The notes below the pieces were generated by a model, which saw nothing but the letters and a program-made list of their open reading frames with translations, did no database searches and was not told where the DNA came from. 22,816 nt of DNA from a bacterium (GTDB taxonomy: Bacteria; CSSED10-310; JAJRTK01), in contig JAJRTK010000236.1 of the NCBI GenBank assembly GCA_024278345.1, positions 1-22,816 on the forward strand, in the 5' to 3' direction. The first letter of the stretch is position 1. Each line of letters opens with the position of its first letter. Shown piece by piece: positions 1 to 22,816 of this stretch. A program made the position numbers and the translations under genes.

Positions 1-1
1 C

Positions 2-646
2 GGGGCATTCTACCGCCGATTCGACCGGGGGCTCTATCTGGATCAGGTGATGGAATCGGGGCTTGCCTCTCTTTGCGGCCAATATGTCAGTTGGGGGCAA
101 ACACTGCTGGACTACGACAATGACGGGGACCTGGATCTGTTCGTGGCGAATGGCGGGCTTCACCATCTTGTGAGCTGGGAGGATCTGCTTTTGCGGAACA
201 CTGGAAAGGGCAAGTTTGAGGATGCAAGCATCGATGGGGGGCCGGTTTTCCAGAGGCGGCACGTGGGCCGGACAGCCATCACCGGCGACTACGACAACGA
301 CGGAGATGTCGATATCTTCGTGACGAACCTCGAAGGTCCGCCCCTCCTGCTTCGGAACGACCTTGGCTCGGGGGCTAGCTGGATCACGCTCGATCTGGTG
401 GGTAGAAAAGGCCGCGACGCCTTTGGATCGCTTGTGGAGATCATTGCGAATGGAAAAAAACAGACCGCGGTGAGCCGGTGCAAGACCGCCTATCTGGGCC
501 AGGGAGACCAGCGCCTCCACTTCGGCCTCGGCATGGGCGTACAAAAGGTCGAGACGATTCGAATCACCTGGCCGGGCGGAAAACAGACCCTGCTGGAGAA
601 GATCACCACAGGGCAAATCCTCCGGTTGGTGGAGGCGGCCCCATGA
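2..646 (+). CDS. ASPIC/UnbV (CRTAC1-like) VCBS-repeat protein, 3' end
   Basis: The reading frame is open from the left edge of the window, so this is the C-terminal part (about 214 residues) of a longer secreted protein. Two calcium-binding-type repeats are visible (DYDNDGDLDLFVANG and GDYDNDGDVDIFVTN), as in FG-GAP/VCBS integrin-like propellers. A C-terminal ASPIC/UnbV domain follows, with the GSLVEI, YLGQGDQRLHFGLG and ITWPGGK segments. Such proteins are exported and usually bind Ca2+; their biochemical role is mostly unknown. The stop overlaps the next start as ATGA, so it is probably co-translated with the HzsA-like gene downstream. The family call is secure; no function can be assigned. 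Confidence 0.88.
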   Translation, partial: GAFYRRFDRGLYLDQVMESGLASLCGQYVSWGQTLLDYDNDGDLDLFVANGGLHHLVSWEDLLLRNTGKGKFEDASIDGGPVFQRRHVGRTAITGDYDNDGDVDIFVTNLEGPPLLLRNDLGSGASWITLDLVGRKGRDAFGSLVEIIANGKKQTAVSRCKTAYLGQGDQRLHFGLGMGVQKVETIRITWPGGKQTLLEKITTGQILRLVEAAP

Positions 647-2268: not shown

Positions 2269-4331
2269 AAGTGGGAAAGAAAGGCTCTCTTTGGCGGTTT
2301 CTGGTTCTGCTGGCTCTGGCGGCGGCGGCGGCGGGATTTTTCGGCCTTGAAGTTCTCTTTCCCCGCCATCTCCGGGCGGTGACGGGCCGCTCCGACATTG
2401 GCCTCATGCGCTGCACGTACTGCCATCGGAAGGTCTTGGAACCGCCGAGGGGAGGGAACCACGTGGGCCTTGACTACATGTCTCCGGCGGGACTTGCGGT
2501 CTCCCCGGATGGCAAGACGCTCTACGTCGCGGCCGAAGGAGCGGACCGGCTGCTGGTGGTCGATCTAGGCGAGAAACGGGTCCGAAGCAGCCTCCCCATC
2601 CAGGGGCGCCCGCATGGAGTGGCAGTCTCCTCTGACGGGGAAAGGCTTGCGGTGACCGGGCGCGACGGGGATCGGGTTCTTCTTCTGGATGCGGCGACCC
2701 TGGAGACCGTGGAGACTTTGCCCACGGGATACGAACCTCTTGCGGCAGCCTTCCGGCCGCTGATGGCCCGGAACGACAGCCTTGGCGGAGCGGCCGAGGC
2801 CGCTGAAAAAAGCACCCTACAACCGGGCGAAGGCGGCGGGACCGGCAGCCGCCAGGAGAATCTATACACCGTCAATGGAACCAGCGGGGACCTGTCGATC
2901 CTGACTCCTGGCAGGCCCGGCCAATCTCTTCGTCTGAGGGCTGGAACCAGTCCCTACGGATTGGCCGTCGCCGCTGATGGCCGCCTTCTGGCGGTGGCGA
3001 ACCGCATGGCGGACCCAGGGCCTCCCCGGCGCGTTCCAGCCTCGGAAGTCACCCTGGTGGACCTCACCCGGAACCGGGTTACCGATCGCCGGAAACTTGT
3101 GTCGGCTCATTTGAGCGAGGGGATCGCGCTCTCGTCCGACGGGAGCTTTGCTCTGGTGGGCGCCGTCCGGGTGCGGAATCTCCTCCCGCTGACCCAGGTG
3201 GCCCGGGGCGCCGTGATGAACAGTGTCCTTGTCTATCTGGAGACGAAACCGGATGGCCGGACGGTCCAGTTTCCCTTGGGCGACGTGAATAGCTACTTCG
3301 CCGATCCTTCGGGGGTGGTTCTGACGCCGGACGACCGGATCGCCTTTGTGGCGGCCGGCGGGGCAAACATCGTGATAGCCGTCGATGTAGAGGCGCTCCA
3401 GAACCTGGTTCAGGGTTCAGGGAAGAGCGAAATTGCTTCGGTGGGGGAAAACCTGGCTCTTTCGGCGGGGTACATCCTGGCCCGGATTCCCACTGGGGAG
3501 AATCCCCGGCAGATGGTCCTCTCGCCGGAAGGGGGACTGCTGTACGTTGCGGAGCGCCTCAACGACTCCATCGCCGTCATCGATGTGAAGTCCCTGACCT
3601 TGACAGGCCGGATCGATCTTGGCGGCCCGAAAGAGTTGACGCCGGAACGACGGGGTGAACGAGTCTTTTCCAACGCCTCGGTCACATTCCAGGGCCAGTT
3701 TTCCTGCCGATCCTGCCATCCCGACGGTCACCACGATGGACTGGTTTATGACTTCGATATTGACGGCATCGGGCGCAACCTTTTAGAAACGAGATCCTTG
3801 CGAGGAATCCGAGACACGGCCCCCTTTAAGTGGAACGGCAAGAACCCGGATCTGGCCACCCAATGCGGGCCTCGCTTCGCCCTTGTCTTGACCCGGAGTG
3901 ACCCCTTTCCACCGGAGGATCTCCAAGATCTGGTGCGGTACATCGAGTCGATCCCCTTGCCGCCGGTGCGGCTACCGAAGTCTCTGGCCAAGGCACGGGA
4001 AGAGGGCCGAAAAATCTTCCACCGGGCAGAGACCAAGAAGGGCGCGGAAATCCCCGTTGCCGACCGATGTCCCACGTGCCACAGAGAGCCACTCTTCACG
4101 GACCGCCTCATGGCTGATGTAGAATCAGGGGCTCCCACGGATAGTGGGCGCTCCTTTGACGCGCCGCACCTCTTGGGAATCGCGGCCTCCGGTCCCTATC
4201 TCCATGACGGTCGGGCCCTGTCGCTTGAAGAGATCTGGACCCGGTTCAACCCCAACGATACTCACGGTGTGACCAACGATCTTGACAAGGTGCAGCTCAA
4301 CGATCTGATCCTCTACCTCAGGAGCCTGTGA
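2265..4331 (+). CDS. YVTN beta-propeller fused to cytochrome-c-peroxidase-like tri-haem protein
   Basis: The start at the ATGA overlap gives a basic N-terminus and one hydrophobic segment (about residues 11-29), so the 688-residue protein is probably anchored or secreted. Three haem c motifs are visible: CTYCH (50-54), CRSCH (481-485) and CPTCH (602-606). Between the first two lies a YVTN/40-residue propeller (SPDGKTLYVAAEGADRLLVV, SPEGGLLYVAERLNDSIAVI). The C-terminal half resembles MauG/di-haem peroxidase proteins: it follows CRSCH with a DGHHDG and TRSLRGIRDTAPFKWNG stretch, and ends with an ASGPYLHDGRALSLEEIW segment. The family is exported and redox active; the substrate cannot be read from sequence. 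It is coupled to genes on both sides. Confidence 0.85.
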   Translation: MKVGKKGSLWRFLVLLALAAAAAGFFGLEVLFPRHLRAVTGRSDIGLMRCTYCHRKVLEPPRGGNHVGLDYMSPAGLAVSPDGKTLYVAAEGADRLLVVDLGEKRVRSSLPIQGRPHGVAVSSDGERLAVTGRDGDRVLLLDAATLETVETLPTGYEPLAAAFRPLMARNDSLGGAAEAAEKSTLQPGEGGGTGSRQENLYTVNGTSGDLSILTPGRPGQSLRLRAGTSPYGLAVAADGRLLAVANRMADPGPPRRVPASEVTLVDLTRNRVTDRRKLVSAHLSEGIALSSDGSFALVGAVRVRNLLPLTQVARGAVMNSVLVYLETKPDGRTVQFPLGDVNSYFADPSGVVLTPDDRIAFVAAGGANIVIAVDVEALQNLVQGSGKSEIASVGENLALSAGYILARIPTGENPRQMVLSPEGGLLYVAERLNDSIAVIDVKSLTLTGRIDLGGPKELTPERRGERVFSNASVTFQGQFSCRSCHPDGHHDGLVYDFDIDGIGRNLLETRSLRGIRDTAPFKWNGKNPDLATQCGPRFALVLTRSDPFPPEDLQDLVRYIESIPLPPVRLPKSLAKAREEGRKIFHRAETKKGAEIPVADRCPTCHREPLFTDRLMADVESGAPTDSGRSFDAPHLLGIAASGPYLHDGRALSLEEIWTRFNPNDTHGVTNDLDKVQLNDLILYLRSL

Positions 4332-5710
4332 TGAAGGGAAGCCACTGGATTGACTGGAACTTCTTTTCGGCGGTGGGCGCGGGGCAGTGCTCGAGCAGCC
4401 GGGAGAAGCCGAACGGATGGAGAGAGGCCCGCTGCCGGGTTTCGGCGGCGGGGCAGGAGCGTGGTGACGCCCGCGGGCTTGATGGCCGAATCTTGGGCCG
4501 GCGGGGTCTCGTTGGTTTTCTTCTTTGTTCCGTGGCGACGGTTCTTCTTTCGGTGGTAAGCGCCGGGCCGGCGAAGAGTGCGACAGTTCGCGCGGCGGAG
4601 GGATCCGGCGGCGGGGCTGGTTCCGCCGATCCGACCACCGGGGACAAAGGCCGCTCCCAGCCTTCTTCAGAGCTTGAGGAGGTCGCCACGGTAGAGGGGA
4701 GAGCTCCGGCTCTTTCTTGCTGGAAGACCCTTGGGACCGCCGACGGGCTGCCATCGGAGAAGGTCTTCGCAGTGGCCGTGGAGGGGGAACGGGTCTGGGC
4801 GGGAACGGAAAAGGGGCTTGCCCTGGTGGAAAACGGCGTAGTCCGCAAAGTCTACGGCGTGAAAAACGGCCTTCCCTTCCAGGCGGTTACGGCACTGGCG
4901 GTAAGCCCATCCACGGGGGACCTTTGGGTCGGAACCATGGGAGGGCTCGCACGGTTTAGCGGGGGGCGGTTCGACACCTTCACACAGCTTGACAGCGGGT
5001 TGGTGAACGATGTCATCTACGGCATTGCCGTGGATGGCCCCGTCATCTGGATCGCCACGGCGGCGGGACTCAACCGGTATGACACGGAAACCGGAGTCTG
5101 GGAGATCTACGACACGACGAACACCTTGATGCACGAGCCCTGGTGTTACGCCGTCACCGCTTCGGATGGCCGGGTCTACGTCGCTGTTTGGGGCGGCGGA
5201 ATCGTAGTCCGGGACGGAAAAACAGGCCGATTTCGAGAACATCGAGACCCGGACAAGGAATTGGAGATCGATCTGTTCCGGGACGATGGCCTGGTCCACG
5301 ACGTCACCTCGGCCGTGGCGGTGGACGAAGGAATCACGTGGGCTGGAACTTACTTCGGCCTCAGCCGTTACGACGGCCGCCGCTGGCGGAGCTACAACCA
5401 ATCCGACAGCGGGTTGGCAGGGGATTTTATTAATTATTTGAAGACTCGCGCCGGTGTTCTCTGGATCGCCACCGATCAGGGCTTGGGCTGGTTCGATGGG
5501 ACCCAGTGGCAAACTTGGCGGAAGGGCAAGGAGGAATCGGAATTTCGGTGGTTGTTCACCGATTCGAAAGGAAAAACCCATTCTTTCCCCACGGAATCCG
5601 GGCCGCCCAGCAACACAATCTTCGGAATCGAGCTTGATGGCGAAGGCAATCCCTGGCTGGCCACGGCCAAGGGCTTGACCCACGCCTGGTCTTGCTCCGG
5701 AAACCCATGA
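4331..5710 (+). CDS. Two-component-regulator-type beta-propeller protein, membrane anchored or exported
   Basis: The start overlaps the upstream stop as TGATG. The 459-residue protein repeats a pattern of the form DLWVGTMGGLARFSGGRFDTF, with variants such as WIATAAGLNRYD, WAGTYFGLSRYDGRRW and WIATDQGLGWFDGTQW. This is the signature of Reg_prop propellers, found as sensor domains of some hybrid kinases. No kinase, cyclase or DNA-binding domain follows, so it is a stand-alone propeller. A hydrophobic segment lies at about residues 59-77 behind a 54-residue arginine-rich leader. A TTG at 4493 would instead give an ordinary signal peptide, but no ribosome site is seen there. The role is unknown; it is probably part of the exported redox cluster upstream. 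Confidence 0.75.
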   Translation: MKGSHWIDWNFFSAVGAGQCSSSREKPNGWREARCRVSAAGQERGDARGLDGRILGRRGLVGFLLCSVATVLLSVVSAGPAKSATVRAAEGSGGGAGSADPTTGDKGRSQPSSELEEVATVEGRAPALSCWKTLGTADGLPSEKVFAVAVEGERVWAGTEKGLALVENGVVRKVYGVKNGLPFQAVTALAVSPSTGDLWVGTMGGLARFSGGRFDTFTQLDSGLVNDVIYGIAVDGPVIWIATAAGLNRYDTETGVWEIYDTTNTLMHEPWCYAVTASDGRVYVAVWGGGIVVRDGKTGRFREHRDPDKELEIDLFRDDGLVHDVTSAVAVDEGITWAGTYFGLSRYDGRRWRSYNQSDSGLAGDFINYLKTRAGVLWIATDQGLGWFDGTQWQTWRKGKEESEFRWLFTDSKGKTHSFPTESGPPSNTIFGIELDGEGNPWLATAKGLTHAWSCSGNP

Positions 5711-5827
5711 CAGCGAAATCAAGGCGTGGGCGGCGGCTGCAAGCGACAGGTGCCATTGCAAAGCCGTTTGCCAAAGAAAAAACGAAGCCAACACGGCAGA
5801 TCATTTTCACCAGAAGGAACCAAACCC

Positions 5828-6433
5828 ATGACCATTGCCAACGCCAGCCAGACGGCTGGCAACGAATCGCCCCTCGCCTTGACCCAGGATGCCTGGACCG
5901 AGCTCGAGGCCATGGGCTTCGACTCCAACAGCGCCGCATTGACCAAGCCCATGAAGGGGCTCCGCCAAGTGGAAGGCCGGCCGTTGATCCCAAGAAAGGC
6001 GATAAGCGCTCCGGAGATCCTCAACGAGGCGCACGAGTACCAGCCACGGCCTTCCTCCTTCAGCCGCGGCCTGCGGGTAGAGCTGCCCGGCGCGACGATG
6101 CTCTTTCTTTCGGGAACCGCCAGCGTCGATGAACAGGGGCGCAGCATCTACGTGGGCGATTTTCAGGCCCAATGCCTGCGGACCTTCAGAAATCTCACGG
6201 CGCTCTTGGCCGCCGAAGGCGCGAGCTGGCACGACATCGTCCGCACAACCTGCTACATCCGGGACATCGAGCGCGATTACGACACTTTCAACGACGTTCG
6301 GACCCTATTTATGAACGCACTGGGCCTCGATCCCCTTCCGGCGAGCACGGGCATCCAGGCCCGGATCTGCCGATCAGACCTCCTGGTGGAGATCGAAGCG
6401 ATGGCCATCATTCCCCACGAGAATGCCGGATGA
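5828..6433 (+). CDS. Rid-family (YjgF/YER057c/UK114) protein with N-terminal extension
   Basis: The ATG at 5828 is chosen because AGAAGGA lies nine bases upstream. The product is 201 residues, against about 130 for a standard Rid protein. The Rid fold covers roughly residues 75-195 (LFLSGTASVDEQGR, FRNLTALLAAEGASWHDIVR, TCYIRDIERDYDTFNDVR, ASTGIQARICRSD, VEIEAMAI). Arg179 aligns with the arginine that RidA enzymes use to bind the carboxylate of reactive enamine/imine intermediates. The first 70 or so residues are not recognised. RidA proteins deaminate or quench 2-aminoacrylate-type products. Its place at the head of an operon with amino-acid-type binding proteins and DAHP synthase fits amino-acid or shikimate metabolism, but the substrate is unknown. 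Confidence 0.82.
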   Translation: MTIANASQTAGNESPLALTQDAWTELEAMGFDSNSAALTKPMKGLRQVEGRPLIPRKAISAPEILNEAHEYQPRPSSFSRGLRVELPGATMLFLSGTASVDEQGRSIYVGDFQAQCLRTFRNLTALLAAEGASWHDIVRTTCYIRDIERDYDTFNDVRTLFMNALGLDPLPASTGIQARICRSDLLVEIEAMAIIPHENAG

Positions 6434-7773
6434 TTCGATCGAGTCACATTTTTCCCGGTGTCCTGGCCCTGTTTTTCGTCTGCCTCGGTGGCTCGGCGTG
6501 GGGGGAGTCTTCTACAGCGGCGGGCTCTACGGTTTCGGCGGGCCCGGCTGAGACAGAAGTCCCTTCCGCTTCTCCGGCCCTGTCAAGCGGCGGTGGAGAA
6601 TCCGGTCACTACGGCCGGACGCCAGCCAAGCTGGTTCCTTACGGCAAAGGGAGGGCGCCCTACCGGCGGTTCTTCCTGGAGCCTCCGCCCTACCGCGGCG
6701 AAGGGCGATCCGCGGCGGAACCCGGAGAACTTTCCACCGTCCGGATCGGTCTTCTGGCCCCGCTGGAGGGGACTCGCCTGGATCACCTGGGCAAGAGCGT
6801 CCTGCAAGGCGTCGAGCTTGCGCTGGAGGAAGCCAACCAAGCCGGCGGTTTTCAAGGCCATCCCTTCGAGCTGGTGGTGAAGAATGATCGGCTGCTGTGG
6901 GGCGGCTCTGGAAACATCTTGGTGGATCTGGCCTATGGGGAGCATGTTTGGGCTCTTATCAGCTCCATCAATTCCAACAGCACCCACGTAGCTCTGCGGG
7001 CGGCACTGAAAGCCGAGATCCCCATGGTGGACGTCTGGAGCACCGACCCCACCATCACGGAAACCGGGATTCCCTGGATACTGCGCTCCACGCCGGATCA
7101 CCGCCAGACGAGCTACCGCCTGGCGCAGCTCCTGTTTCAGAATCGTGGTTTGAGCCGCGTGGCCGTTCTTCGCTCCAGTAACCGCTACGGCCGGCTGGGA
7201 GTGGGGGAGTTTCGGGATGCGGCGCAGCGGCTCTCGAAACCTCTGGTCATGGAGGCTCAATTCACTCCCGGAGCTGATGATTTCTCCGCTCAGCTTCGCC
7301 GGATCGCCGCCAGCAAGCCCGAGGCCGTAGTTCTCTGGGCAGACGCCGAGGATGCCGCACGGATCGTCCGCCAGATGCGTGAGAAGGGGATGGACCAGCT
7401 CGTGGTGGGAAGCAACAGGATTGTGTCGCCGCGCTTCCTGGATTTGGCTGGAAAATCGGCCGAGGGCGTGATGGCGACCTTTCCCATGAACCTGGATAGC
7501 GGCGGTGAAGACTGGAAGAAGTTCGTGGAGAAGTTCCGGCAAAAGACCGGCGGCCCACCGGATGCTTTCGCGGCCTACAGCTACGATGCCGCAAATCTTC
7601 TTATGGAAGCCATCCGGAAGGCGGGCCTCAACCGGGCTCGGATCCGGGACGAGCTGGCAAGCCTTCAAAAATGGCGCGGCGTTACCGGAGAATTCGTTTT
7701 CGACGCCACCTCCAACAACGTGGCTCCTCTCTTCCTGGCCCACGTGAAAAACGGGAGATTCGTCTTTGAATAG
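6430..7773 (+). CDS. ABC-type amino-acid-family substrate-binding protein (LivJ-like)
   Basis: The start overlaps the Rid stop as ATGA and opens into a signal peptide (MIRSSHIFPGVLALFFVCLG). A low-complexity Ser/Gly/Ala/Pro linker follows to about residue 55, then an aromatic-rich stretch (RRFFLEPPPYRGEG). The binding-protein fold begins at TVRIGLLAPLEG and shows typical segments: LQGVELALEEANQAGG, YGRLGVGEFRDAAQ, PGADDFSAQLRRI, YSYDAANLLMEAIRKAG. The length, 447 residues, is somewhat above the family norm because of the linker. Such proteins capture branched-chain amino acids, amides or similar ligands in the periplasm. No permease or ATPase gene lies in the window, so it may serve a distant transporter or act as a stand-alone sensor. 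Confidence 0.85.
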   Translation: MIRSSHIFPGVLALFFVCLGGSAWGESSTAAGSTVSAGPAETEVPSASPALSSGGGESGHYGRTPAKLVPYGKGRAPYRRFFLEPPPYRGEGRSAAEPGELSTVRIGLLAPLEGTRLDHLGKSVLQGVELALEEANQAGGFQGHPFELVVKNDRLLWGGSGNILVDLAYGEHVWALISSINSNSTHVALRAALKAEIPMVDVWSTDPTITETGIPWILRSTPDHRQTSYRLAQLLFQNRGLSRVAVLRSSNRYGRLGVGEFRDAAQRLSKPLVMEAQFTPGADDFSAQLRRIAASKPEAVVLWADAEDAARIVRQMREKGMDQLVVGSNRIVSPRFLDLAGKSAEGVMATFPMNLDSGGEDWKKFVEKFRQKTGGPPDAFAAYSYDAANLLMEAIRKAGLNRARIRDELASLQKWRGVTGEFVFDATSNNVAPLFLAHVKNGRFVFE

Positions 7774-8992
7774 GCGGTTTTCATCCATCGTTCTTCTTGC
7801 CGTGACGCTCTTTGGAGGCCCCATGGGCTGGGCGAAGAGTGCCGCCGACCCGGCTCGTGGAGCGGCAAGTGCCGCGACCAACGGACTTACGGGTACCGTG
7901 ACCAACGGGCTGGAGGGTGATGGGACAGGCAGGGCTGCGGGAAAGCCCGCCCTTCAGCCGGTTGGGCCACAAGCCATCCGGCAGGCGGAAAAACCCTTGT
8001 CCATCGCACTTGTAGGAACGGGGACGGCCCTGGATCGGTGCATCGCCTGGGGCGCCGAGCTTGCCCTCAAAGAGCTCACGGCAAACAGCCAGTCCAGGCC
8101 TCCTTTCCGCCTGGAAACCCTGGAATCTCCAAGCCCGTGGAGGAGCGGGGCCTCTCTCATCTCTCGGCTGGCCTTCCAGGAGGAGGTTTTGGTCCTGCTG
8201 GGACCGGCCCAGGGAGCAGCGGCCCACTTGGTGGCCCAAATCGCCACGCGGCGGCGTGTGGCGGCAGTCCTCTTTTCGGCGGAGGAATCCCTGACGCAGG
8301 CCCACGATCCCTGGGTCTTCCAGGCGGTCCCCAGCGACGAAGAGCAGGCTGGAGCACTCCTGGACTGGGCGAGGAAAACCGAGCACCTGGAGAAGGCCCT
8401 GGCCATCGTTCCGCCCGGCCGCGAAGGCCGGGAGCGCTTCTCCGCTCTGGGCCGGGCATGTGCCAAGCGAGGAATTCCGTTGGCCTTCTTCCGGCAGGGC
8501 GCCCCTGGAACCAAGAAGGGAACCGTCTTGTTGCTATGGCTCGACCCCGGTCCGGCCCTCCAATTCTTGAGGAACCTCCCTCAAAAGCAAGTCCCGAAGC
8601 TCATTCTGGGGAGCCATCGTCTGGACCACTTCCCTTTTCTTGAAGGCGCTCCCAACCGCTTTTCTCTCCTTGCCATGCCCCGCCTGGGAGAGGCCGGCGG
8701 CGATTTCGGCGAGCGGTTGGGCTACGACATGATCTCGTTCCTGGCGCCGGGACTGAGCAAGGAAGAAGTAGGCGCGGAGGAACTCCGGGACTTCCTCTCC
8801 ACAAGAAGTGCAATGCAAGGTAAAACGGGCTCCTTCCGATTCGGACCTACCGGTCGCCGGCAGGGCTCCATGGAGATAGGCCTCCTAGATGGCGGCCGGC
8901 TCGTTCCGGCTGGGCGGCGGCCAGGGAAAAGGCCGGGCGCCACAACAGGTGGAACAGCTTCTCCCCACGACATTCCCGAGGAAACGCCATGA
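7766..8992 (+). CDS. Divergent periplasmic binding-protein-like protein
   Basis: A TTG start at 7766 overlaps the previous gene by eight bases and gives a good signal peptide ([21 protein letters not shown]). The 408-residue protein has the outline of a type 1 periplasmic binding fold: [90 protein letters not shown]. It is much less conserved than its upstream neighbour, and the ligand-pocket residues are not recognisable. Two adjacent binding proteins suggest duplication and divergence, or a heteromeric receptor. A relation to the binding-protein-like components of PQQ/quinoprotein systems is possible but not shown by the sequence. Confidence 0.7.
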
Positions 8993-13771: not shown

Positions 13772-13972
13772 GGCCTCGGTCATGGTACCGGCCACGGTTC
13801 AGATTTCAGACGCCGCCCCGGGGCTTACAGCCCTGGAACCCGGCGGAGGCGCCGCCTCCGGACCTCCGCTGGGAGCGCCGCTCCCAGACCCACGCCAGGG
13901 AGCCAGCTCCCTGGACCCACATCTTTGTGCGCTGCGCGCTTTTTTCGGGTGGCCGGTACCATGACCGAGGCC
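13772..13972. mobile_element. 201-bp hairpin-rich element with 24-bp terminal inverted repeats (copy 1)
   Basis: The element is bounded by perfect 24-bp inverted repeats at 13772-13795 and 13949-13972, beginning GGCCTCGGTCATGG. It has no coding capacity, so it resembles a MITE or a compound REP-like element. Its interior contains four successive perfect hairpins centred about 25-27 bp apart. Near the right end a short GCGC stem is followed by six T residues (13940-13945), which could stop transcription. A second copy in opposite orientation begins at 22658. Target-site duplication could not be recognised. Confidence 0.8.
13821..13914. repeat. Array of four short palindromes inside copy 1
   Basis: The stems are GGGCT/AGCCC (13821-13833), GGAGGC/GCCTCC (13845-13859), CTGGGAGC/GCTCCCAG (13869-13887) and CCAGGGAGC/GCTCCCTGG (13895-13914). 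Loops are two or three bases. Linkers between stems share an ACCC or ACCT core. Spacing of the centres is nearly regular at 25-27 bp. Such arrays are known as intergenic repeats in several bacterial groups, but I cannot name this family. Confidence 0.8.
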
Positions 13973-14284: not shown

Positions 14285-15223
14285 ATGGGCAGCTCGCTCT
14301 ATTGGTTGCAGTGTGGGGGATGCTCCGGTGACACCTGGTCCTTGTTCGGCTCCGAGACACCGGACGTGGTGGAATTGTTGGAGCTTTTGGAGATCGAGGT
14401 TCTTTGGCACCCTTCGTTGAGTGTGGCTTCCCCCGTGGAACATCGGCGGATTCTACAAAGAATTGTGGATGGTGAGCTGGAGCTCGACCTGCTCTGCGTG
14501 GAAGGGGCCATCATTCGGGGACCGGGCGGCACGGGGATGTTTGACACGTTCCATGGCCACCCGAAAAAGGACCTGGTGAGCAAATTGGCAAATCGGGCAG
14601 GAACAGTCCTTGCCATGGGCACATGTGCTTCCTTTGGGGGGGTGCCGGCCACTGGAGAGATTGAAGCGACGGGCTTGCAGTTTCACCGGAAGGTCACGGG
14701 AGGTTTCTTGGGGGAAAACTTCCGAAGCCGGAGTGGGTTGCCAGTCATCAACCTCCCGGGTTGTCCCTGCCACGGCGAAGTCATGTCCGGAGTTCTCACC
14801 GCGCTGGTGACTGGCGGACAGCTCGTTCTCACCGCCAACAACGTCCCTGAGCAATGGTATGGTATGTTGGTCCACCAAGGCTGCGTTCGCAACGAATATC
14901 ACGAGTTCCGCGTGGAAGAACACGACTTTGGTGAAAAGGGGTGCCTCTTTTTCCACATGGGCTGCCAGGCCCCCATGACCTACGGCGTTTGCAACAAGGT
15001 GCTTTGGAATCGCCGGAATAGTAAGACATCGGCGGGAGTCCCGTGTTTGGGATGCACTCGACCCGATTTCCCCCGGGAACACCCCTTTTTCAAATCCGAA
15101 TCTATCGCAGGTGTGCCACTCAAGCTCCCCATCGGAGTGGACAGGGCTCACTACCTGGCCTACAAGGGGCTGGCCGCCGCGGCTGCTCCCCAACGGCTGC
15201 TCAGGCGTGAAACGCGAGTGTGA
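14285..15223 (+). CDS. [NiFe]-hydrogenase small subunit, soluble group 2-like
   Basis: The ATG at 14285 follows GGAGG four bases upstream; an earlier TTG would only add five residues. The 312-residue protein has no Tat signal, so it is cytoplasmic, unlike group 1 enzymes. Proximal cluster ligands are Cys10, Cys13, Cys114 and Cys160 (LQCGGCSGD, GTCASFGG, GCPCHGE). The distal site is His197, Cys200, Cys220 and Cys227, with the six-residue spacing seen in group 2. The medial site is Cys236, Cys254 and Cys257, with no fourth cysteine at the usual place, suggesting [3Fe-4S]. VLWHPSLS and the absence of a signal sequence also fit group 2. The subunit passes electrons to or from the active site in the next gene's product. 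Confidence 0.93.
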   Translation: MGSSLYWLQCGGCSGDTWSLFGSETPDVVELLELLEIEVLWHPSLSVASPVEHRRILQRIVDGELELDLLCVEGAIIRGPGGTGMFDTFHGHPKKDLVSKLANRAGTVLAMGTCASFGGVPATGEIEATGLQFHRKVTGGFLGENFRSRSGLPVINLPGCPCHGEVMSGVLTALVTGGQLVLTANNVPEQWYGMLVHQGCVRNEYHEFRVEEHDFGEKGCLFFHMGCQAPMTYGVCNKVLWNRRNSKTSAGVPCLGCTRPDFPREHPFFKSESIAGVPLKLPIGVDRAHYLAYKGLAAAAAPQRLLRRETRV

Positions 15224-15239
15224 GAAGCGGAGTAGGAAA

Positions 15240-16772
15240 ATGGGGAAAGTTCGCATCACCGTGCCGATGAACCGTGTGGAAGGGGATCTGGAGGTCCGGG
15301 TGGAAATCGCCGATGGAGTCGCGGTGGATGCCTGGTGCTCGGGAACGATGTACCGTGGATTCGAACGGATACTGGAAGGGCGGGGGGCGCTGGACGGCCT
15401 GGTGCTCACGCCCCGCATCTGCGGGATCTGCGGCATCAGCCATCTACGAGCGGCCGCGACGGCCCTGGAGAACCTGGCGGGAATTACGCCGCCGCCAGAC
15501 GCCACCAGGATTCGAAACCTCACCGTCATGACGGAGCATGTCCAGAGCGATATTCGCCAATCTTTTCTTATGTTTGCCGTGGATTTCCTGAATCCGGTTT
15601 ACGAGGCCACCCCTCTCTACGGGGAGGCTCTGGCCCGATTTCAACCTTTCAAGGGCGAAACCGTGCGCCAGGTGATCCGGGAGACGAAGAAAATCCTGGA
15701 GATCATCGCTATTCTTGGTGGTCAATGGCCTCACTCGCCCTTCATCGTTCCCGGTGGCCTGGCATCCCAACCCACGGGCGAAAGCCTCTTGCGCTGCCGT
15801 CTTATCCTGGAGCAATTCCGACGGTGGTACGAAAGGCGGATTTTGGGATGTGAGCTGGAACGCTGGCTGGAGATCCTAGATTCCGATGATCTTGACGGCT
15901 GGCTGGAAGAGCGAGAGGAGCACTGGAAAAGCGATCTGGGACTTCTTCTGCGCCTGGCCCGACAACATGGGCTGGACAGGATCGGCGGCGGCCACGACAG
16001 CTTTTTGAGCTATGGTGGCTTCCCGGAACCGGACCAAGAGAAGAGCAAGGGGAAAAATGGGCTTTTCCCCGCTGGCTTCTTGCTGGACAATGAGGTCCAC
16101 GCCTTGGACGAAAAAAGAGTCACCGAGCATGTCGCCTACTCGTGGTACGTGGACTACAAAGGAGGCAAACACCCTGGAGACGGTGAAACCCAGCCCTATG
16201 CCACGGGCGCCGAGGGCGACAAGTATTCCTGGGCTAAGGCACCTCGCTATGACGGACGGCCGGCGGAAACAGGGCCTCTCGCCAGCATGATGGTCGCGGG
16301 AAACCCCCTCTTCCAGGATCTTGTCAGGCAAAACGGCCCAAACGCCATGGCTCGACAGTTGGCCCGCCTTGTGAGGCCGGCCTATTTCCTTCCGGCCATG
16401 CAACGATGGCTGGCAGGCGTCTCTGGGGATGAGGAATTTTATCGATCGAACGGCGAGATTCACGATGGAACTGGCTGCGGCCTCGGTGAGGCCGCTCGCG
16501 GAGGGCTGGGACACTGGGTAACAATCGAACGAGGCAGAATCAAAAAATACCAAATCGTGACTCCCACGGCATGGAACGCTTCACCGCGGGATTCGGACGG
16601 TACGCGTGGCCCCATGGAAGAATCCTTGGTGGGGACACCGGTGAGGGATCCCGAAAACCCGGTGGAGCTGAGTCACGTTGTACGGTCGTTCGATCCCTGC
16701 CTGGTTTGCACGGTTCATGCCGTGGGGCGGGGCAAGAAACTGGGACGACTGCGGCTCTCCATGACGAAATGA
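15240..16772 (+). CDS. [NiFe]-hydrogenase large subunit, group 2-like (possibly group 2c)
   Basis: The ATG at 15240 lies 16 bases after the small-subunit stop, behind a GCGGAG site. The 510-residue protein keeps all four nickel-iron cysteines: RICGICGISH (Cys61, Cys64) and DPCLVCTVH (Cys487, Cys490). It begins with the PMNRVEGDLEVRVEIADG segment (usual VEGH reads VEGD). It catalyses or senses H2 oxidation. A 17-residue extension follows His493, as in hydrogenases that need endoproteolytic maturation, and a protease gene follows directly. Classical H2 sensors HupV/HoxC lack such an extension. The downstream kinase and cyclase suggest the histidine-kinase-linked clade called group 2c, but a tree is required for this assignment. 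Confidence 0.92.
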   Translation: MGKVRITVPMNRVEGDLEVRVEIADGVAVDAWCSGTMYRGFERILEGRGALDGLVLTPRICGICGISHLRAAATALENLAGITPPPDATRIRNLTVMTEHVQSDIRQSFLMFAVDFLNPVYEATPLYGEALARFQPFKGETVRQVIRETKKILEIIAILGGQWPHSPFIVPGGLASQPTGESLLRCRLILEQFRRWYERRILGCELERWLEILDSDDLDGWLEEREEHWKSDLGLLLRLARQHGLDRIGGGHDSFLSYGGFPEPDQEKSKGKNGLFPAGFLLDNEVHALDEKRVTEHVAYSWYVDYKGGKHPGDGETQPYATGAEGDKYSWAKAPRYDGRPAETGPLASMMVAGNPLFQDLVRQNGPNAMARQLARLVRPAYFLPAMQRWLAGVSGDEEFYRSNGEIHDGTGCGLGEAARGGLGHWVTIERGRIKKYQIVTPTAWNASPRDSDGTRGPMEESLVGTPVRDPENPVELSHVVRSFDPCLVCTVHAVGRGKKLGRLRLSMTK

Positions 16773-17227
16773 AGGCTCAACGGATCATCTGCGTGGGAAA
16801 TCGGTTCGTGGAGGCTGATGCTCTGGGCGGGCTTGTTTTCGATTACCTTCGCAGGCATGCCCCACCAGCTTCGGTCCAGGTGTTCGATGGCGGACTGGCG
16901 GGCCTCGATCTCTTGCGCCTCGTGGAGGGAGCTGGGCGCGTGGTTTTTGTGGATAGCATGGCAAACGTAGAAGTTCCTGGAGAAATCATCGTGCTGGACG
17001 AGGCCGGACTAAGAGAAATCGCTCCAGATGCCTACGACCATGGCGCCGGGCTTCCCTACCTCGTAAGGGCTCTTCCCTATGTCTGCGACGACCCGATGCC
17101 GGAGCTGCTCCTCGTTGCCGCACGCACGCCGTGCCAGCCGGAAACCGTGAGAAAAGCTGCTGACTTGGCCATCGAAATCGCACTTCAGGGGTGGCGTGCG
17201 GAAGTGGCGGCAAGGGAGGAAGCCTGA
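16769..17227 (+). CDS. Hydrogenase maturation protease (HyaD/HupD, M52 family)
   Basis: The start overlaps the large-subunit stop as ATGA. The 152-residue product begins with the family glycine-rich motif in the form IICVGNRFVEADALGG. Plausible nickel-sensing ligands are Asp17, Asp62 (VFVDS) and His91 (DAYDHGAG), matching the Asp/Glu, Asp and His of HybD-type enzymes. These proteases check nickel insertion and then cut the C-terminal extension of the large subunit after the His of the DPCxxCxxH motif. The gene probably processes the enzyme encoded immediately upstream. Divergence from well-known HyaD/HybD sequences is marked, but context and motifs agree. Confidence 0.85.
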   Translation: MKAQRIICVGNRFVEADALGGLVFDYLRRHAPPASVQVFDGGLAGLDLLRLVEGAGRVVFVDSMANVEVPGEIIVLDEAGLREIAPDAYDHGAGLPYLVRALPYVCDDPMPELLLVAARTPCQPETVRKAADLAIEIALQGWRAEVAAREEA

Positions 17228-20167
17228 ATGAACGAGCTCTTGGAGCACCGGAGCCAAGAGAAGCTCTTGGAGGAAAACCGACTACTCCTCGAAGAAGTGC
17301 TGGTTTCCCGTAAAGCCTCCAGTATCACCGCCAACCTGGTGATCGAGCAGTTTGTCAAGATCGACGAAATCCAGCGAGTCCTGGAGAAAAAGGTCGCCAA
17401 CGAGAAGCGTTTGAACAAGTATTTCAGCGCTCTTCACGAAACGGCCCTGGGGCTGCTCCGCCGACTCGATGTCAACGAATTGCTGCGGTCTCTCGTCTCA
17501 AGGGCGGCCCAGCTCACCGAAGCGCCCTACGGGTTTGTCTACCTGTTGGACGACCAGAAAGCCGCCTTGGAATGCAAAGTTGGCGTCGGCGCCTTCGCCG
17601 AAGAGATCGGATTTATTCTCCAGAAAGGCGAGGGGTTGGCCGGCCGTGTCTGGGAGACCGAACAATCAGTCAGTGTGAGCAGTTACGACGATTGGGAAGG
17701 ATGCTCCCCAAAGGTGAAGAAAAACCGCTTCGGCGCGGTCATCGGCCTGCCTCTTTTCTCAAGGGCCTGTTTTCTGGGCGTCATCGGCTTGGCCCACAGC
17801 CGGGACTCCCATCGCGTTTTCGGAGATGAGGAGCAGGCGGTTCTAGGCCGCCTTGCCGAGCTGGCATCCATCGCTCTTGACAACGTCCACCTGTACGCTG
17901 AGACCCGGGAAGCAAGAGAGGCCGCGGAAATCGCGAATCTCCACAAAAGCGAGTTCCTGGCCAACATGAGCCATGAGATTCGCACGCCGATGAACGCCAT
18001 TCTCGGGATGTCCGAGCTGGCCCGAAAGCTGGAGATGCCGCCAAAACTGCGAAACTACATCGATGTGATCCGCACATCGGCTCACTCGCTTCTGGGCATT
18101 CTCAATGATATTTTGGATTTCTCGAAGATCGAGGCTGGCCGCATCGTGCTGGAAGAGGTGGACTTCCAGCTCCGTCCAGTCTTGGAGGGCCTCTCCGATC
18201 TGTTTGGAGAACGCGCCGCCAGAAAGGACATCGAGCTCCTGTTGGCCATCGATCCCGATGTGCCCAACGAGCTTAGGGGGGACCCGCTTCGGCTGGGACA
18301 GATCCTCATCAACCTCACGAATAATGCCCTGAAATTTACCCAGGCCGGGGAGATCGTCATTCAAGCTCGCTGCGTGGAAAAGGATGACACCGGAGTTCGG
18401 TTGGAATTCTCCGTGGCCGATACCGGCATTGGAATCAGTCAAGAACAGTTGGGCAAGGTCTTTTCCACGTTCCATCAAGCCGATCCATCCATCACCAGAA
18501 ACTACGGAGGTACCGGGCTTGGCCTTTCTATCTCCAAAGGGCTGGTAGAGGCGATGGGGGGGAGGATTTGGGCGGACAGCACTCCTGGCGAAGGCAGCAC
18601 CTTCCGTTTTCAGGCCCCGTTCGGCCTGGCAGGCGAGGGCTCCGAGAAGAGCCTCCTTCTGCCGCCGGAGATTTCTTCCGCTCGGGCTCTCGTGGTGGAC
18701 GACAACGAGACGGCTCGATGGATCATCAGTGAGATGCTCGAAAGATTCTCCTTCCGCGTCACACAAAGCTGCTCGGGTGAGGAGGCCCTCACTCTTCTTG
18801 CCCAAGCGGAAAGCCAGGGCGATCCTTTCCGGTTGGTGCTCATGGATTGGAGAATGCCCGGCCTCGATGGGCTGACCACGTCTCAGACCATCAGAAGCGA
18901 CGAACAGCTTGGGGAGACAAAGATCATCATCATGACCGCGTACGGTCGGGAAAAACAGGCTGAAAAAGCCGAGGCCATCGGCGTAGACGCGTTCTTGTTC
19001 AAGCCGATCAAGGAATCGCTGCTGTTCGATACGATCATGGATGTCTACGGGGCGCCAGGGCCCAGGGCCACGCCGAGACGATCCTACGAGCTCCAAGACG
19101 CGTCAAGAGCGGAACGGCTCGGGGGGCGGAAGGTCCTTCTTGCCGAAGACAACGCCATCAACCAGCAGGTGGCCGTGGGGCTGCTTGAAGGGGCTGGCCT
19201 CCTGGTCGAGGTAGCTGGAAACGGGGAAGAAGCGGTTCGTATGGCGAAACAATCGACCTTCGACGTCGTTTTGATGGACCTTCAAATGCCCGTGATGGAC
19301 GGGCTGGAAGCCACCCGCGAGATCCGACGCACGCCTGGACTGGAGGACCTCCCCATCATCGCACTGACCGCACACGCCATTTCGGGCCAACGGCAGACCT
19401 GTCTGAATGCCGGAATGAATGATTTCGTTAGTAAGCCCATAGAAACCACCGAGCTTTTTTCCGCGTTGCAGCGGTGGATCGAACCTTCTGAAACCAGGCA
19501 GGTGGGGCCTCGTGAAACCGGCTTGACGGAAGAGCCGTGCCCGGCCCGCCAAGATCTTCCGGGCATTGATGTTGAGAACGCGCTGAGGCGGCTCGGCGGC
19601 AACAGAGAGCTCCTGGAGAATCTGCTCATCCGGTTTTGCCGCGACTACGCTGACGCCGGCCAAGAAGTGCGGGCAGCCCTCGAATCGAACGATAGGGAAG
19701 CCGCCCGAGCCCTGGCCCACACGCTTAAAGGCGTTGCCGGTAACTTGGGAATCAGTGAGGTTTTCAGGTTGTCAAGTGATCTCCAAGCGGCGCTCGATTC
19801 GGGAGACGAGCCGTCGATCCGTTCGATTGTACCAGCGCTGGAAAAGGCTATTGAAGAAGTGATCGAGCTCCGACCGCTTCTGGAAAAACCCTCTTTCCAC
19901 GCAGCACGGGCCGCGGTGCCAGAAGACGGGCCATTGCCGAAGGCCACAAGAGGACAATTGCGCGAGCTTCACCTTCTTCTCCAGGGAAACGACTTCGGGG
20001 CACGGGATTGTGTGACCGCTATCCTGAAGGATCTCCGCCAATCGCCTGCCTTCCATGAGCTTCAACGGGTGGCGGATGAGTTGGACCGATTTGACTTTGA
20101 TGGCGCCCATCGCGTGCTGCTGGAACTTTGTGGGAATCTCGGCCTCGACCTTGACCAAGGGAGCTGA
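17228..20167 (+). CDS. GAF-domain hybrid sensor histidine kinase with two receivers and HPt
   Basis: The ATG directly follows the protease stop, with GGGAGGA upstream. The 979-residue protein has no membrane segment, so it is cytoplasmic. Domains in order: a leucine-rich helical N-terminus (1-70, likely coiled coil), GAF (about 72-222), HisKA with phospho-His249 (NMSHEIRTPMN), and HATPase (INLTNNALKF, DTGIG, GGTGLGL, about 345-465). Then come receiver 1 (Asp540, Lys592), receiver 2 (Asp684, Lys736), HPt with His831 (AHTLKGVAGNLG), and an 80-residue helical tail. All phosphorelay residues look intact. Being in one operon with a hydrogenase, it probably receives the H2 signal through protein contact or a redox cue at the N-terminus or GAF. 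The nearby receiver-cyclase is its likely target. Confidence 0.93.
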   Translation: MNELLEHRSQEKLLEENRLLLEEVLVSRKASSITANLVIEQFVKIDEIQRVLEKKVANEKRLNKYFSALHETALGLLRRLDVNELLRSLVSRAAQLTEAPYGFVYLLDDQKAALECKVGVGAFAEEIGFILQKGEGLAGRVWETEQSVSVSSYDDWEGCSPKVKKNRFGAVIGLPLFSRACFLGVIGLAHSRDSHRVFGDEEQAVLGRLAELASIALDNVHLYAETREAREAAEIANLHKSEFLANMSHEIRTPMNAILGMSELARKLEMPPKLRNYIDVIRTSAHSLLGILNDILDFSKIEAGRIVLEEVDFQLRPVLEGLSDLFGERAARKDIELLLAIDPDVPNELRGDPLRLGQILINLTNNALKFTQAGEIVIQARCVEKDDTGVRLEFSVADTGIGISQEQLGKVFSTFHQADPSITRNYGGTGLGLSISKGLVEAMGGRIWADSTPGEGSTFRFQAPFGLAGEGSEKSLLLPPEISSARALVVDDNETARWIISEMLERFSFRVTQSCSGEEALTLLAQAESQGDPFRLVLMDWRMPGLDGLTTSQTIRSDEQLGETKIIIMTAYGREKQAEKAEAIGVDAFLFKPIKESLLFDTIMDVYGAPGPRATPRRSYELQDASRAERLGGRKVLLAEDNAINQQVAVGLLEGAGLLVEVAGNGEEAVRMAKQSTFDVVLMDLQMPVMDGLEATREIRRTPGLEDLPIIALTAHAISGQRQTCLNAGMNDFVSKPIETTELFSALQRWIEPSETRQVGPRETGLTEEPCPARQDLPGIDVENALRRLGGNRELLENLLIRFCRDYADAGQEVRAALESNDREAARALAHTLKGVAGNLGISEVFRLSSDLQAALDSGDEPSIRSIVPALEKAIEEVIELRPLLEKPSFHAARAAVPEDGPLPKATRGQLRELHLLLQGNDFGARDCVTAILKDLRQSPAFHELQRVADELDRFDFDGAHRVLLELCGNLGLDLDQGS

Positions 20168-20170
20168 CCG

Positions 20171-21616
20171 GTGGGTAAAAACAGAACCAGATTGCTCATC
20201 ATCGACGACGCGCCCACGAACATCGCGATTTTGGGCGAGGGCCTGAAATCGGAGTTCCAGCTCGCGGTGGCCACAAACGGGACCACCGGATTGAAGCTTG
20301 CGCGAGGGGAACCCCGTCCTCACCTCATTCTTCTTGACATCGTCATGCCGGGAATGGACGGCTACGAAGTTTGCCGTACCCTGAAGTCGGATCCAGCTAC
20401 GAAAAATATCCCAGTCATCTTCATCACGTCCAGAAGTGACGTCGAAGACGAAACTCGCGGGCTACAGATCGGCGCCGTCGACTACATCACCAAGCCGTTC
20501 AACCTAGACATCGTTCGGGCTCGCATCCAGACCCACCTGGAGCTGCAACAGCGGACTCGTGAGCTCAGGCGTGCTCTGAGCGAACTGGAAATCCGCAACC
20601 AGTTCATCCGCCAGACCTTTGGGCGGTATCTTTCCGACGAGATTGTCCATGAGATATTGGAAAAGCCCGAGGGCCTGCGCCTGGGGGGCGAGACCCGGGA
20701 AGTGACCGTTCTCATGGCGGACTTGCGAGGATTTACGGCGATCTGCGAAAAACTGCCGGCGGAAGATGTCGTGGGGCTCATCAATATCTTCCTGGGTGCC
20801 ATGACCGAAATCATCGTCGGCCACAACGGCACCATCGACGAGTTCCTTGGCGATGCGATCCTGGCCATCTTCGGAGCACCGGTCAAGCGCGAGAACGACG
20901 CGCAGCACGCAGTGGCCTGTGCTCTGGAGATGCAACGCGCCATGGCGGAAGTCAACCGGAAGAACGCCAAAAGAGGCTATCCGGAAGTCTCCATGGGAAT
21001 CGGTATCCACACCAGCCAGCTCATCGTGGGCAACATCGGCTCCAAGAAGCGGATCAAATACGGTGTCGTTGGACATGGCGTCAATCTGACGGCTCGTATC
21101 GAGTCCAGTACAGTTGGCGGCCAGGTCCTGATCTCTGAAAAAACCCGAGAGTTCTGCGGTGACCTTCTGCGAATCGACTCGCGGATGGAAATCCTCCCAA
21201 AGGGCGTGCAAGAGCCGCTGGCCATTTACGAAATCGGGGGCATCGGCGGGGAGTTCAAGATCCACCTGCCGCCGAAAGAGGAGGGCGAGTTGAAGCCTCT
21301 CCAGCCCCCGCTGGCGGTGCGCTATGCCCCCTTGCTCGGGAAACACGGGCTTGGGGAAACCTCTGATGGAACCCTGCTCGCCGTCGCGCAGCCAAGGGCT
21401 GATCTCCAGTCGGCGGAGCCACTGGCCTCCCTGTCCAACCTCAAAATCTCCTTGTTGGACGAAGATGGCCAGGAGGCGGTTTCAGGACTCTACGCTAAGG
21501 TTATCCGAGAGCTGTCCTCTTCTCCCGGACAGTATCGGATTCACTTCACTTCGGTTTCAGCCGAGGCGCGGCATTTTTTCGCGGCGCACATCCGAGGAGG
21601 GAAGAATGCCCAGTAA
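20171..21616 (+). CDS. Response regulator with class III adenylate/guanylate cyclase output
   Basis: The GTG at 20171 lies three bases after the kinase stop and seven bases after AAGGGAG. The 481-residue protein has a receiver (Asp56 in LLDIVMPGMDG, Lys108), a helical linker (about 120-165), a class III cyclase domain (about 175-355) and a C-terminal region (360-481). Metal ligands Asp184 (MADLRGFT) and Asp228 (FLGD), and the transition-state pair Asn305/Arg309 (VNLTAR), are present, so it should be active. Glu224 sits where adenylate cyclases usually have Lys, and Gly298 where they have Asp or Thr. The nucleotide made is therefore uncertain. The C-terminal region is unassigned; its pattern is vaguely PilZ-like but lacks the c-di-GMP motifs. 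Confidence 0.92.
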   Translation: MGKNRTRLLIIDDAPTNIAILGEGLKSEFQLAVATNGTTGLKLARGEPRPHLILLDIVMPGMDGYEVCRTLKSDPATKNIPVIFITSRSDVEDETRGLQIGAVDYITKPFNLDIVRARIQTHLELQQRTRELRRALSELEIRNQFIRQTFGRYLSDEIVHEILEKPEGLRLGGETREVTVLMADLRGFTAICEKLPAEDVVGLINIFLGAMTEIIVGHNGTIDEFLGDAILAIFGAPVKRENDAQHAVACALEMQRAMAEVNRKNAKRGYPEVSMGIGIHTSQLIVGNIGSKKRIKYGVVGHGVNLTARIESSTVGGQVLISEKTREFCGDLLRIDSRMEILPKGVQEPLAIYEIGGIGGEFKIHLPPKEEGELKPLQPPLAVRYAPLLGKHGLGETSDGTLLAVAQPRADLQSAEPLASLSNLKISLLDEDGQEAVSGLYAKVIRELSSSPGQYRIHFTSVSAEARHFFAAHIRGGKNAQ

Positions 21617-21759: not shown

Positions 21760-22518
21760 TCAGGAGCGGTCACTTTCATCCTGGAGGCGGGCGGCTTCCA
21801 GGAGAAGATGAGTGACAGAAAGATCGCCGAACTCGCTTGCTCCTTCTACGGGAACCCTTTCGAACTCGAAGACTCCGCTAATCCATCGGCAGGTCTCGTA
21901 GATCACGGCGGCATTCCTGGGCTCCCCCTGCCCCACAATGTTGGCTCGGATGACGATGCCATCTCTGAAAAAGACTCTGGCGTGCCGCTTTCGATTGGTG
22001 GAGACGATATTCAAAATCCCCGTCTTCCTCTCCAGCTCGAAGATTGAGAGAAGCGTCGGCAGACCGAAATCGCCAAGGGAGCCTTGGAGAGCCCTCTCCA
22101 TCGAGTTTTCCGTCTCCTTTGGGTGCAGGTGGCTCTCCAGCTCGCGGCGATGCTCCAGGCACTTTTTGATCCGGATCTCCACTTCCTCAAAGTGGAAGGG
22201 CTTGGGCAAATAGTCGTCCGCGCCGAGCTTGAATCCCCGCAGGCGATCCTCCGCCGAGTTCAGCGCGGTCAGGAAGATGACGGGCATCAGGGCAAAAGAG
22301 GGCTCGGCTCGGAGTTTCTTCACAAGCTCCCAGCCGGCCATTTTGGGCATCATAATGTCGGTGATGAGAAGATCGGGCTTCCCTTCCCCAGCCTTTTCGA
22401 AGGCATCGACGCCATTCTCGGCCACCAAGACATCATAGCCCCGGGCTTCCAAGAGCGTCGAGAGCATCCGGCGAATCCACTGGTCGTCGTCTACAATCAA
22501 AATGCGCGCCTTCTTCAT
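21760..22518 (-). CDS. Response regulator with receiver and PATAN/DUF4388 domain
   Basis: I choose the ATG at 22518 (MKKARILIVDDDQ) because AAGGGA lies eight bases upstream; another ATG three codons earlier has no room for a ribosome site. The 252-residue protein has a receiver (acidic pocket at 10-12, Asp54 in LLITDIMMPKMAGWE, Lys106 in LPKPF). A PATAN/DUF4388-type C-terminal domain follows (about 145-248), with GSLGDFGLPTLLSIFELERK, FFRDGIVIRA and SGVFEFE segments. PATAN regulators have no DNA-binding domain and act by protein contact, often in motility control. It faces the hydrogenase-kinase-cyclase operon and may be a second receiver for the same kinase, but that is inference. Confidence 0.88.
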   Translation of the reverse strand: MKKARILIVDDDQWIRRMLSTLLEARGYDVLVAENGVDAFEKAGEGKPDLLITDIMMPKMAGWELVKKLRAEPSFALMPVIFLTALNSAEDRLRGFKLGADDYLPKPFHFEEVEIRIKKCLEHRRELESHLHPKETENSMERALQGSLGDFGLPTLLSIFELERKTGILNIVSTNRKRHARVFFRDGIVIRANIVGQGEPRNAAVIYETCRWISGVFEFERVPVEGASEFGDLSVTHLLLEAARLQDESDRS

Positions 22519-22622
22519 CGATCCCATCCCTTAAACCACACGTTGCTTCTTCGCGTTGGCCCCAGGCGAAGCCTGCTCTGCCCGCGAACAGCATTGCCCT
22601 CACATCCCCCTCTACATTGGAG

Positions 22623-22657: not shown

Positions 22658-22816
22658 GGCCTCGGTCATGGTACCGGCCACCCGAAAAAAGCGCGCAGCG
22701 CACAAAGATGTGGGTCCAGGGAGCTGGCTCCCTGGCGTGGGTCTGGGAGGCGCTCCCAGCGGAGGTCCGGAGGCGGAGCCTCCGCCGGGTTCCAGGGCTG
22801 GTAGCCCCGGGGCGGC
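22658..22816. mobile_element. Hairpin-rich element, copy 2, inverted and cut by the window end
   Basis: Bases 22658-22681 are identical to the 24-bp terminal repeat of copy 1. The remaining sequence is the reverse complement of copy 1 (13811-13972) with few differences, which fall mainly in hairpin loops. The far terminal repeat would lie about 40 bp beyond the window. The copy sits upstream of the receiver-PATAN gene, with an A-tract just outside its end. Confidence 0.85.

Follow-up and report, generated by a model that had tools for sequence, protein, structure and literature searches.

A candidate cytosolic hydrogen-sensing operon on a group 2c [NiFe]-hydrogenase and a helix motif shared by the partner proteins of its clade

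Within a stretch of 22,816 nucleotides from a bacterium of the lineage CSSED10-310 (assembly GCA_024278345.1, contig JAJRTK010000236.1, positions 1 to 22,816; hereafter the window), five consecutive genes encode the two subunits of a [NiFe]-hydrogenase, a maturation protease, a hybrid histidine kinase and a receiver-cyclase. We consider it likely that this operon is a cytosolic module for sensing hydrogen (H2), built on a group 2c hydrogenase, in which a helix-docked kinase relays to a cyclase whose product is most likely cyclic guanosine monophosphate (cGMP). New here is an N-terminal motif of 44 residues shared across the partner proteins of group 2c hydrogenases, which a first, sequence-only reading of the window had missed and which connects the operon with the other members of its family.

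The five open reading frames (ORFs) lie on the + strand at 14285-21616 with successive gaps of 16, -4, 0 and 3 bp, so that the gene content and close spacing given by the sequence-only reading stand, also at the level of Pfam domains. The features are as follows.

14285 to 15223, + strand: [NiFe]-hydrogenase small subunit (312 amino acids, 12 Cys; Pfam Oxidored_q6 and NiFe_hyd_SSU_C)
15240 to 16772, + strand: group 2c-type [NiFe]-hydrogenase large subunit (510 amino acids; Pfam NiFeSe_Hases; named from the L2 consensus, the tree and the motif table)
16769 to 17227, + strand: hydrogenase maturation protease (Pfam HycI; TIGR00072)
17228 to 20167, + strand: soluble hybrid histidine kinase (979 amino acids; helix motif, GAF, HisKA, HATPase_c, two Response_reg and Hpt, from Pfam and phospho-site motifs)
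17261 to 17392, + strand: 44-residue N-terminal helix motif of the kinase, proposed hydrogenase-coupling element (profile search)
17465 to 17881, + strand: kinase GAF domain (Pfam GAF_2, residues 80-218)
20171 to 21616, + strand: receiver and class III nucleotidyl cyclase (481 amino acids; Pfam Response_reg and Guanylate_cyc; top Protein Data Bank (PDB) matches 2w01 and 6fht)
20693 to 21205, + strand: cyclase catalytic domain with E224 and G298 (Pfam Guanylate_cyc, residues 175-345)

All catalytic and phosphorylation residues that were checked in the five products are present. The large subunit has its L1 motif RICGIC at 59 and its L2 motif SFDPCLVCTVH at 483-493, followed by a C-terminal peptide of 17 residues. 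The phospho-site and related motifs of the kinase start at 248 (SHEIRTP), 539 (MDWRMPG), 683 (MDLQMPV) and 830 (AHTLKGVAG), and the cyclase receiver has its D56 (position counted by eye). Since the products contain no stretch hydrophobic enough to cross a membrane (highest mean over 19 residues 1.9) and the small subunit has no leader of the twin-arginine translocation (Tat) type, the whole hydrogenase-kinase-cyclase system is read as cytosolic. Moreover, the gene order, whose conservation the first reading had proposed to look for, is found again in other phyla, and thus the five-gene arrangement is not due to chance.

We infer the following route. The co-encoded protease would mature the hydrogenase heterodimer, which would turn over H2 and pass its state to the partner via the 44-residue N-terminal helix docked on the hydrogenase. 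In the window this helix belongs to the GAF hybrid kinase, whose activity it would control. Phosphate would then move from the kinase His through the receivers and the HPt domain to Asp56 of the receiver-cyclase, and phosphorylation of Asp56 would alter cyclic nucleotide synthesis, most likely that of cGMP.

Group 2c hydrogenases and their signalling neighbours

A profile of two rows was used to scan 84,980 species genomes and gave 80 hydrogenase loci, which were picked by the large subunit alone, the N-terminal motif playing no part in their selection. A quick maximum-likelihood tree was built from 96 large subunits. In it, the window enzyme and 70 others form one clade of 71 members (Shimodaira-Hasegawa-like approximate likelihood ratio test, 99), which is separate from the HoxC/HupV-type enzymes of group 2b, from three 2a-like enzymes and from group 1. 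The large subunits of L104-L113, first taken for 2a references, are placed by the tree with group 1 and served as outgroup only. The L2 motif of the window enzyme matches the published group 2c consensus SFDxCLVCTVH (PMC4853749), and the window enzyme is assigned to group 2c, a name that for the clade as a whole rests on this motif, on its separation from 2b and on those of its members that are linked to GGDEF-EAL proteins, in a tree built without HydDB reference rows. In the phylum of the window, only one relative (G003, locus L068) has a close large subunit, with 54% identity.

HydDB describes group 2b as histidine-kinase-linked and group 2c as "diguanylate cyclase-linked (putative)" (PMC5037454). 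The label 2c given by the sequence-only reading was therefore right, while the histidine kinase link that it attached to this label is the one that HydDB gives to 2b. The window operon shares with HydDB's 2c the L2 motif, a cytosolic location, a downstream signalling gene and a clade that includes GGDEF-EAL-linked members of the kind on which that description is based (L100, L101, L103, L117). It differs in its output, which is a hybrid kinase with a receiver-class III cyclase and not a diguanylate cyclase/phosphodiesterase. Indeed, the diguanylate cyclase link is not clade-wide, as GGDEF outputs are one of several types.

Like the 2b systems HoxBC-HoxJ and HupUV-HupT, the window operon encodes a soluble histidine kinase next to the hydrogenase, its enzyme has Ile at the first gas-channel position, and it is proposed to sense H2. 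In 2b the L2 His is the last residue of the large subunit, whereas the window large subunit carries its 17 further residues; it has Met and not Phe at the second gas-channel position, and H where 2b has Q after the L1 motif. The 2b partner is a PAS kinase of the HoxJ type with a different N-terminal helix, whereas the window kinase has a GAF domain and no PAS, and the 2b circuit ends in a sigma-54 regulator where the window has a receiver-cyclase. Two other 2c large subunits (L041, L092) end exactly at the L2 His, and no protease gene was detected ahead of their partner genes; in both respects they resemble 2b sensors.

A signalling gene stands directly beside the hydrogenase or protease gene in all 71 clade members, whereas no signalling gene adjoins the hydrogenase in the loci of group 1-like and 2a-like enzymes used for comparison. 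This bears on the possibility that the window encodes an uptake hydrogenase merely co-transcribed with unrelated signalling genes. In favour of this, the window enzyme keeps a C-terminal peptide and a maturation protease, as energy-conserving hydrogenases do, and the closest solved large subunit is that of Huc, a group 2a uptake enzyme that feeds electrons to menaquinone. However, no electron-acceptor subunit is recognised between the large subunit and the partner; the genome also has a separate group 1 hydrogenase linked to cytochrome b, and the partner proteins carry the specific motif described below. We regard the uptake explanation as very improbable and rejected it on the tree position and the signalling neighbours. 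The enzyme groups with sensory hydrogenases, as first proposed; an uptake clade whose relatives lack signalling neighbours, which that proposal had named as its refutation, is not what the tree and loci gave.

The outputs vary among the clade members. Kinase relays lead to GGDEF receivers in 11 loci, to HD-GYP proteins in 5, to sigma-54 regulators in L064 and L066, and to receiver-cyclases in the window, L035, L041 and L044, with a cyclase lacking a receiver in L077; the other kinase-relay loci end in receivers or at cut contigs. Direct partners are GGDEF proteins (5), GGDEF-EAL proteins (4) and, in L032, a single class III cyclase. Pfam was used to check ten of these partner or output proteins. 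On the large-subunit tree, 33 loci scored from a list compiled by hand call for a minimum of 8 switches between the four output types, and of 5 for the cyclase state; the outputs therefore appear to have been exchanged repeatedly. In L064 and L066 the 2c hydrogenase, the motif-bearing kinase and the sigma-54 regulator sit directly before a second hydrogenase. This layout would be expected of an H2-responsive regulator, as in 2b circuits, and favours a sensor role.

The N-terminal helix motif

The N-termini of the window kinase and of the G003 cyclase are alike, and the remainder of the two proteins is not. A profile made from the kinase N-terminus gave a helix-forming motif of 44 residues with the consensus ELxxENxLLRxEIRVARxAAEITAxLVVxQFxKTExILxRLExA. 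In 67 of the 71 clade loci the partner protein carries it, at the extreme N-terminus and mostly no more than about 100 bp from the gene before. The motif is common to kinases, diguanylate cyclases and nucleotide cyclases, and direct motif-GGDEF and motif-cyclase fusions occur. Searches of Pfam, NCBIfam and PDB returned only chance-level matches, and the motif matched neither the 2b kinases HoxJ and HupT nor the annotated neighbour proteins of three 2a-like loci. A tblastn search against plasmids gave nothing, which is uninformative at 44 residues. No report of the motif was found in the open-access literature.

The motif appears tied nearly one-to-one to the 2c hydrogenase. The window genome has a single significant match (E 6.8e-19), the next being at chance level (E 0.97). 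Each of 12 other genomes has one motif, except G069, where a second copy also adjoins a second 2c hydrogenase. Among 291 genomes of one class, with the 2c large subunit called at E below 1e-80 (a threshold set by us), the motif was found in 37 and the large subunit in 34, all of them within the 37; two genomes (G191, G252) have two hydrogenases and two motifs each. The hypergeometric p of this co-occurrence, about 3e-41, ignores shared ancestry and is a guide only. By coordinates, 36 of the 39 motif places in these genomes adjoin a 2c hydrogenase gene, and two of the remaining three (G235, G271) lie at most 0.8 kb from a contig end. The third is in G234 (contig C277, L190), where a motif-bearing hybrid kinase on the minus strand (959-4390) is followed by a REC-GGDEF (receiver-GGDEF) gene.

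Taken with its distribution, the motif is probably a hydrogenase-coupling element. A precedent for a helical non-hydrogenase subunit that organises a group 2 enzyme is the HucM scaffold of Huc (PMC10017518). The motif might instead be a dimerisation coiled coil of the kinase lineage, since the AlphaFold model of the kinase N-terminus (mean predicted local distance difference test score, pLDDT, 74) has a single helix across it, with low confidence there. We find this improbable: the motif spans kinases, diguanylate cyclases and nucleotide cyclases, it occurs only once or twice per genome, and its near-invariant polar positions E5, N6, E12, R17 and Q30 would not commonly be seen in a simple coiled coil.

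In the L032 fusion (420 residues), no sensor domain separates the motif, which ends at residue 50, from FGRY, a cyclase transducer element (PMC5995499) that starts at 72. This short spacing suggests that the motif leads directly into the cyclase helix; AlphaFold modelled the motif-cyclase fusion poorly (mean pLDDT 45), and the model was not used. The same fusion bears on another form of coupling, in which the hydrogenase would hand electrons from H2 to its partner, or to some unknown carrier, and kinase activity would respond to a redox change at or close to the GAF domain, with the helix serving only as a tether. In 2b, H2 sensing is considered to require ongoing turnover of H2 and the transfer of protons and electrons (PMC10073562), and the 12 Cys of the small subunit fit an iron-sulfur relay. 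Yet the kinase has no evident redox cofactor site and outputs without GAF or PAS exist, of which L032 is an example, so we hold coupling by electron transfer to be rather unlikely.

The 2b kinases HoxJ and HupT share an N-terminal helix of their own. A profile of five sequences matched one of the 4454 ORFs of the 2c survey (E 3.9e-5), the partner of L102, the one locus whose large subunit falls with 2b in the tree, outside the 71-member clade. This partner kinase (L102, 4327-6288) has no PAS in the parts identified. Because L102 groups with 2b, has the 2b-type helix and shows no PAS in those parts, the helix before the PAS domain, and not the PAS domain itself, may be the hydrogenase-recognising part in 2b.

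Two other arrangements of the motif were observed. The L035 operon (1-8445) has two motif-bearing kinases, one on either side of the protease gene, and L099 (2076-2501) encodes a protein of 141 residues made of the motif and a cysteine-rich tail with CxxC pairs, with no Pfam domain.

Tentatively, and with less confidence than for the window operon itself, group 2c might serve as a general-purpose H2 input, joined by one docking helix to kinases, diguanylate cyclases and nucleotide cyclases alike, and would here give an H2-to-cGMP pathway. The role of group 2c is catalogued as undetermined, and a single conserved partner motif across many phyla makes its signalling route directly testable. If the reading is true, the motif-cyclase and motif-GGDEF fusions would be compact H2-controlled second-messenger enzymes.

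The cyclase product and points against the reading

The catalytic domain of the window cyclase best matches, among solved chains, 6fht, a phytochrome-Cya2 chimera (246 bits), then 2w01 (213 bits). Cya2 of Synechocystis uses an E-G substrate pair (PMC4215837), and the window cyclase has the same type of pair in E224 and G298, together with the metal-binding Asp motifs DLRGF (184) and LGD (226-228). Cya2 has a CHASE2 membrane sensor, whereas the window cyclase would be controlled by its receiver domain. The E-G pair favours guanosine triphosphate as substrate, though some E-G enzymes take both nucleotides. Because of this pair and of Cya2 as best solved match, the product is somewhat more probably cGMP than cyclic adenosine monophosphate (cAMP), which narrows the "cAMP or cGMP" of the first reading. 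The substrate pairs elsewhere are E-G in L032, D-S in L041, K-D in L044, K-T in L077 and H-S in L035; cyclases of different predicted substrates therefore seem to have been recruited.

The K-D and K-T pairs, which are of the adenylyl cyclase type, and the many class III cyclase matches in the window genome would fit a cyclase that makes cAMP, or one not driven by the kinase, with H2 acting through the kinase on another regulator. The E-G pair, the similarity to Cya2, the 3-bp gap to the kinase gene and the same position of the receiver-cyclase in L035, L041 and L044 speak against this alternative; we judge it unlikely, though it is the one to which we give most weight. Under the preferred reading, in which the kinase drives a cGMP-producing cyclase, the cyclic-nucleotide-binding proteins of the genome, which encodes 9 matches to such domains, could be the receivers of the signal. 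No link between H2 and cGMP was found in the open-access literature; a cGMP output, if true, would be notable, as few bacterial guanylyl cyclases are characterised. Another receiver-cyclase of the same genome, on contig C510, has no hydrogenase in view, the contig being cut.

Several points weigh against the proposed H2-to-cGMP route. H2 sensing is something that we infer for any group 2c enzyme, and phosphorylation of the window receiver by the kinase is assumed from the adjacency of their genes. The window enzyme, unlike characterised 2b sensors, keeps the C-terminal peptide and the protease and has Met for Phe. The four GGDEF-EAL-linked loci L100, L101, L103 and L117 have no recognisable motif, with weak traces in two only. 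In the 3.9 kb upstream of the G234 motif copy there is no hydrogenase, nor was one detected elsewhere in the genome; this kinase is possibly an orphan left after hydrogenase loss. As the motif and hydrogenase genes are linked, their co-occurrence may partly reflect joint inheritance. Finally, the E-G pair is typical of guanylyl cyclases but leaves the choice of substrate unsettled (PMC4215837).

Surroundings of the operon

The source genome is a 6.06-Mb draft of 550 contigs. On its contig C194 (L033, 4813-9320) lie the genes of a Tat-type group 1 hydrogenase, together with those of a cytochrome b and a maturation protease; this hydrogenase might be what is regulated. In the window, a gene for a receiver-DUF4388 protein faces the 3' end of the operon (21760-22527, minus strand). 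The operon is flanked by a repeat of about 200 bp with terminal inverted repeats of 24 nt, in opposite orientations (13772-13972, +; 22658-22816, -). About 40 near-complete copies, from 495 first-look candidates, were scored in the genome at 92-99% identity, many of them at contig ends. This repeat looks like an element of the miniature inverted-repeat transposable element type at which the assembly breaks.

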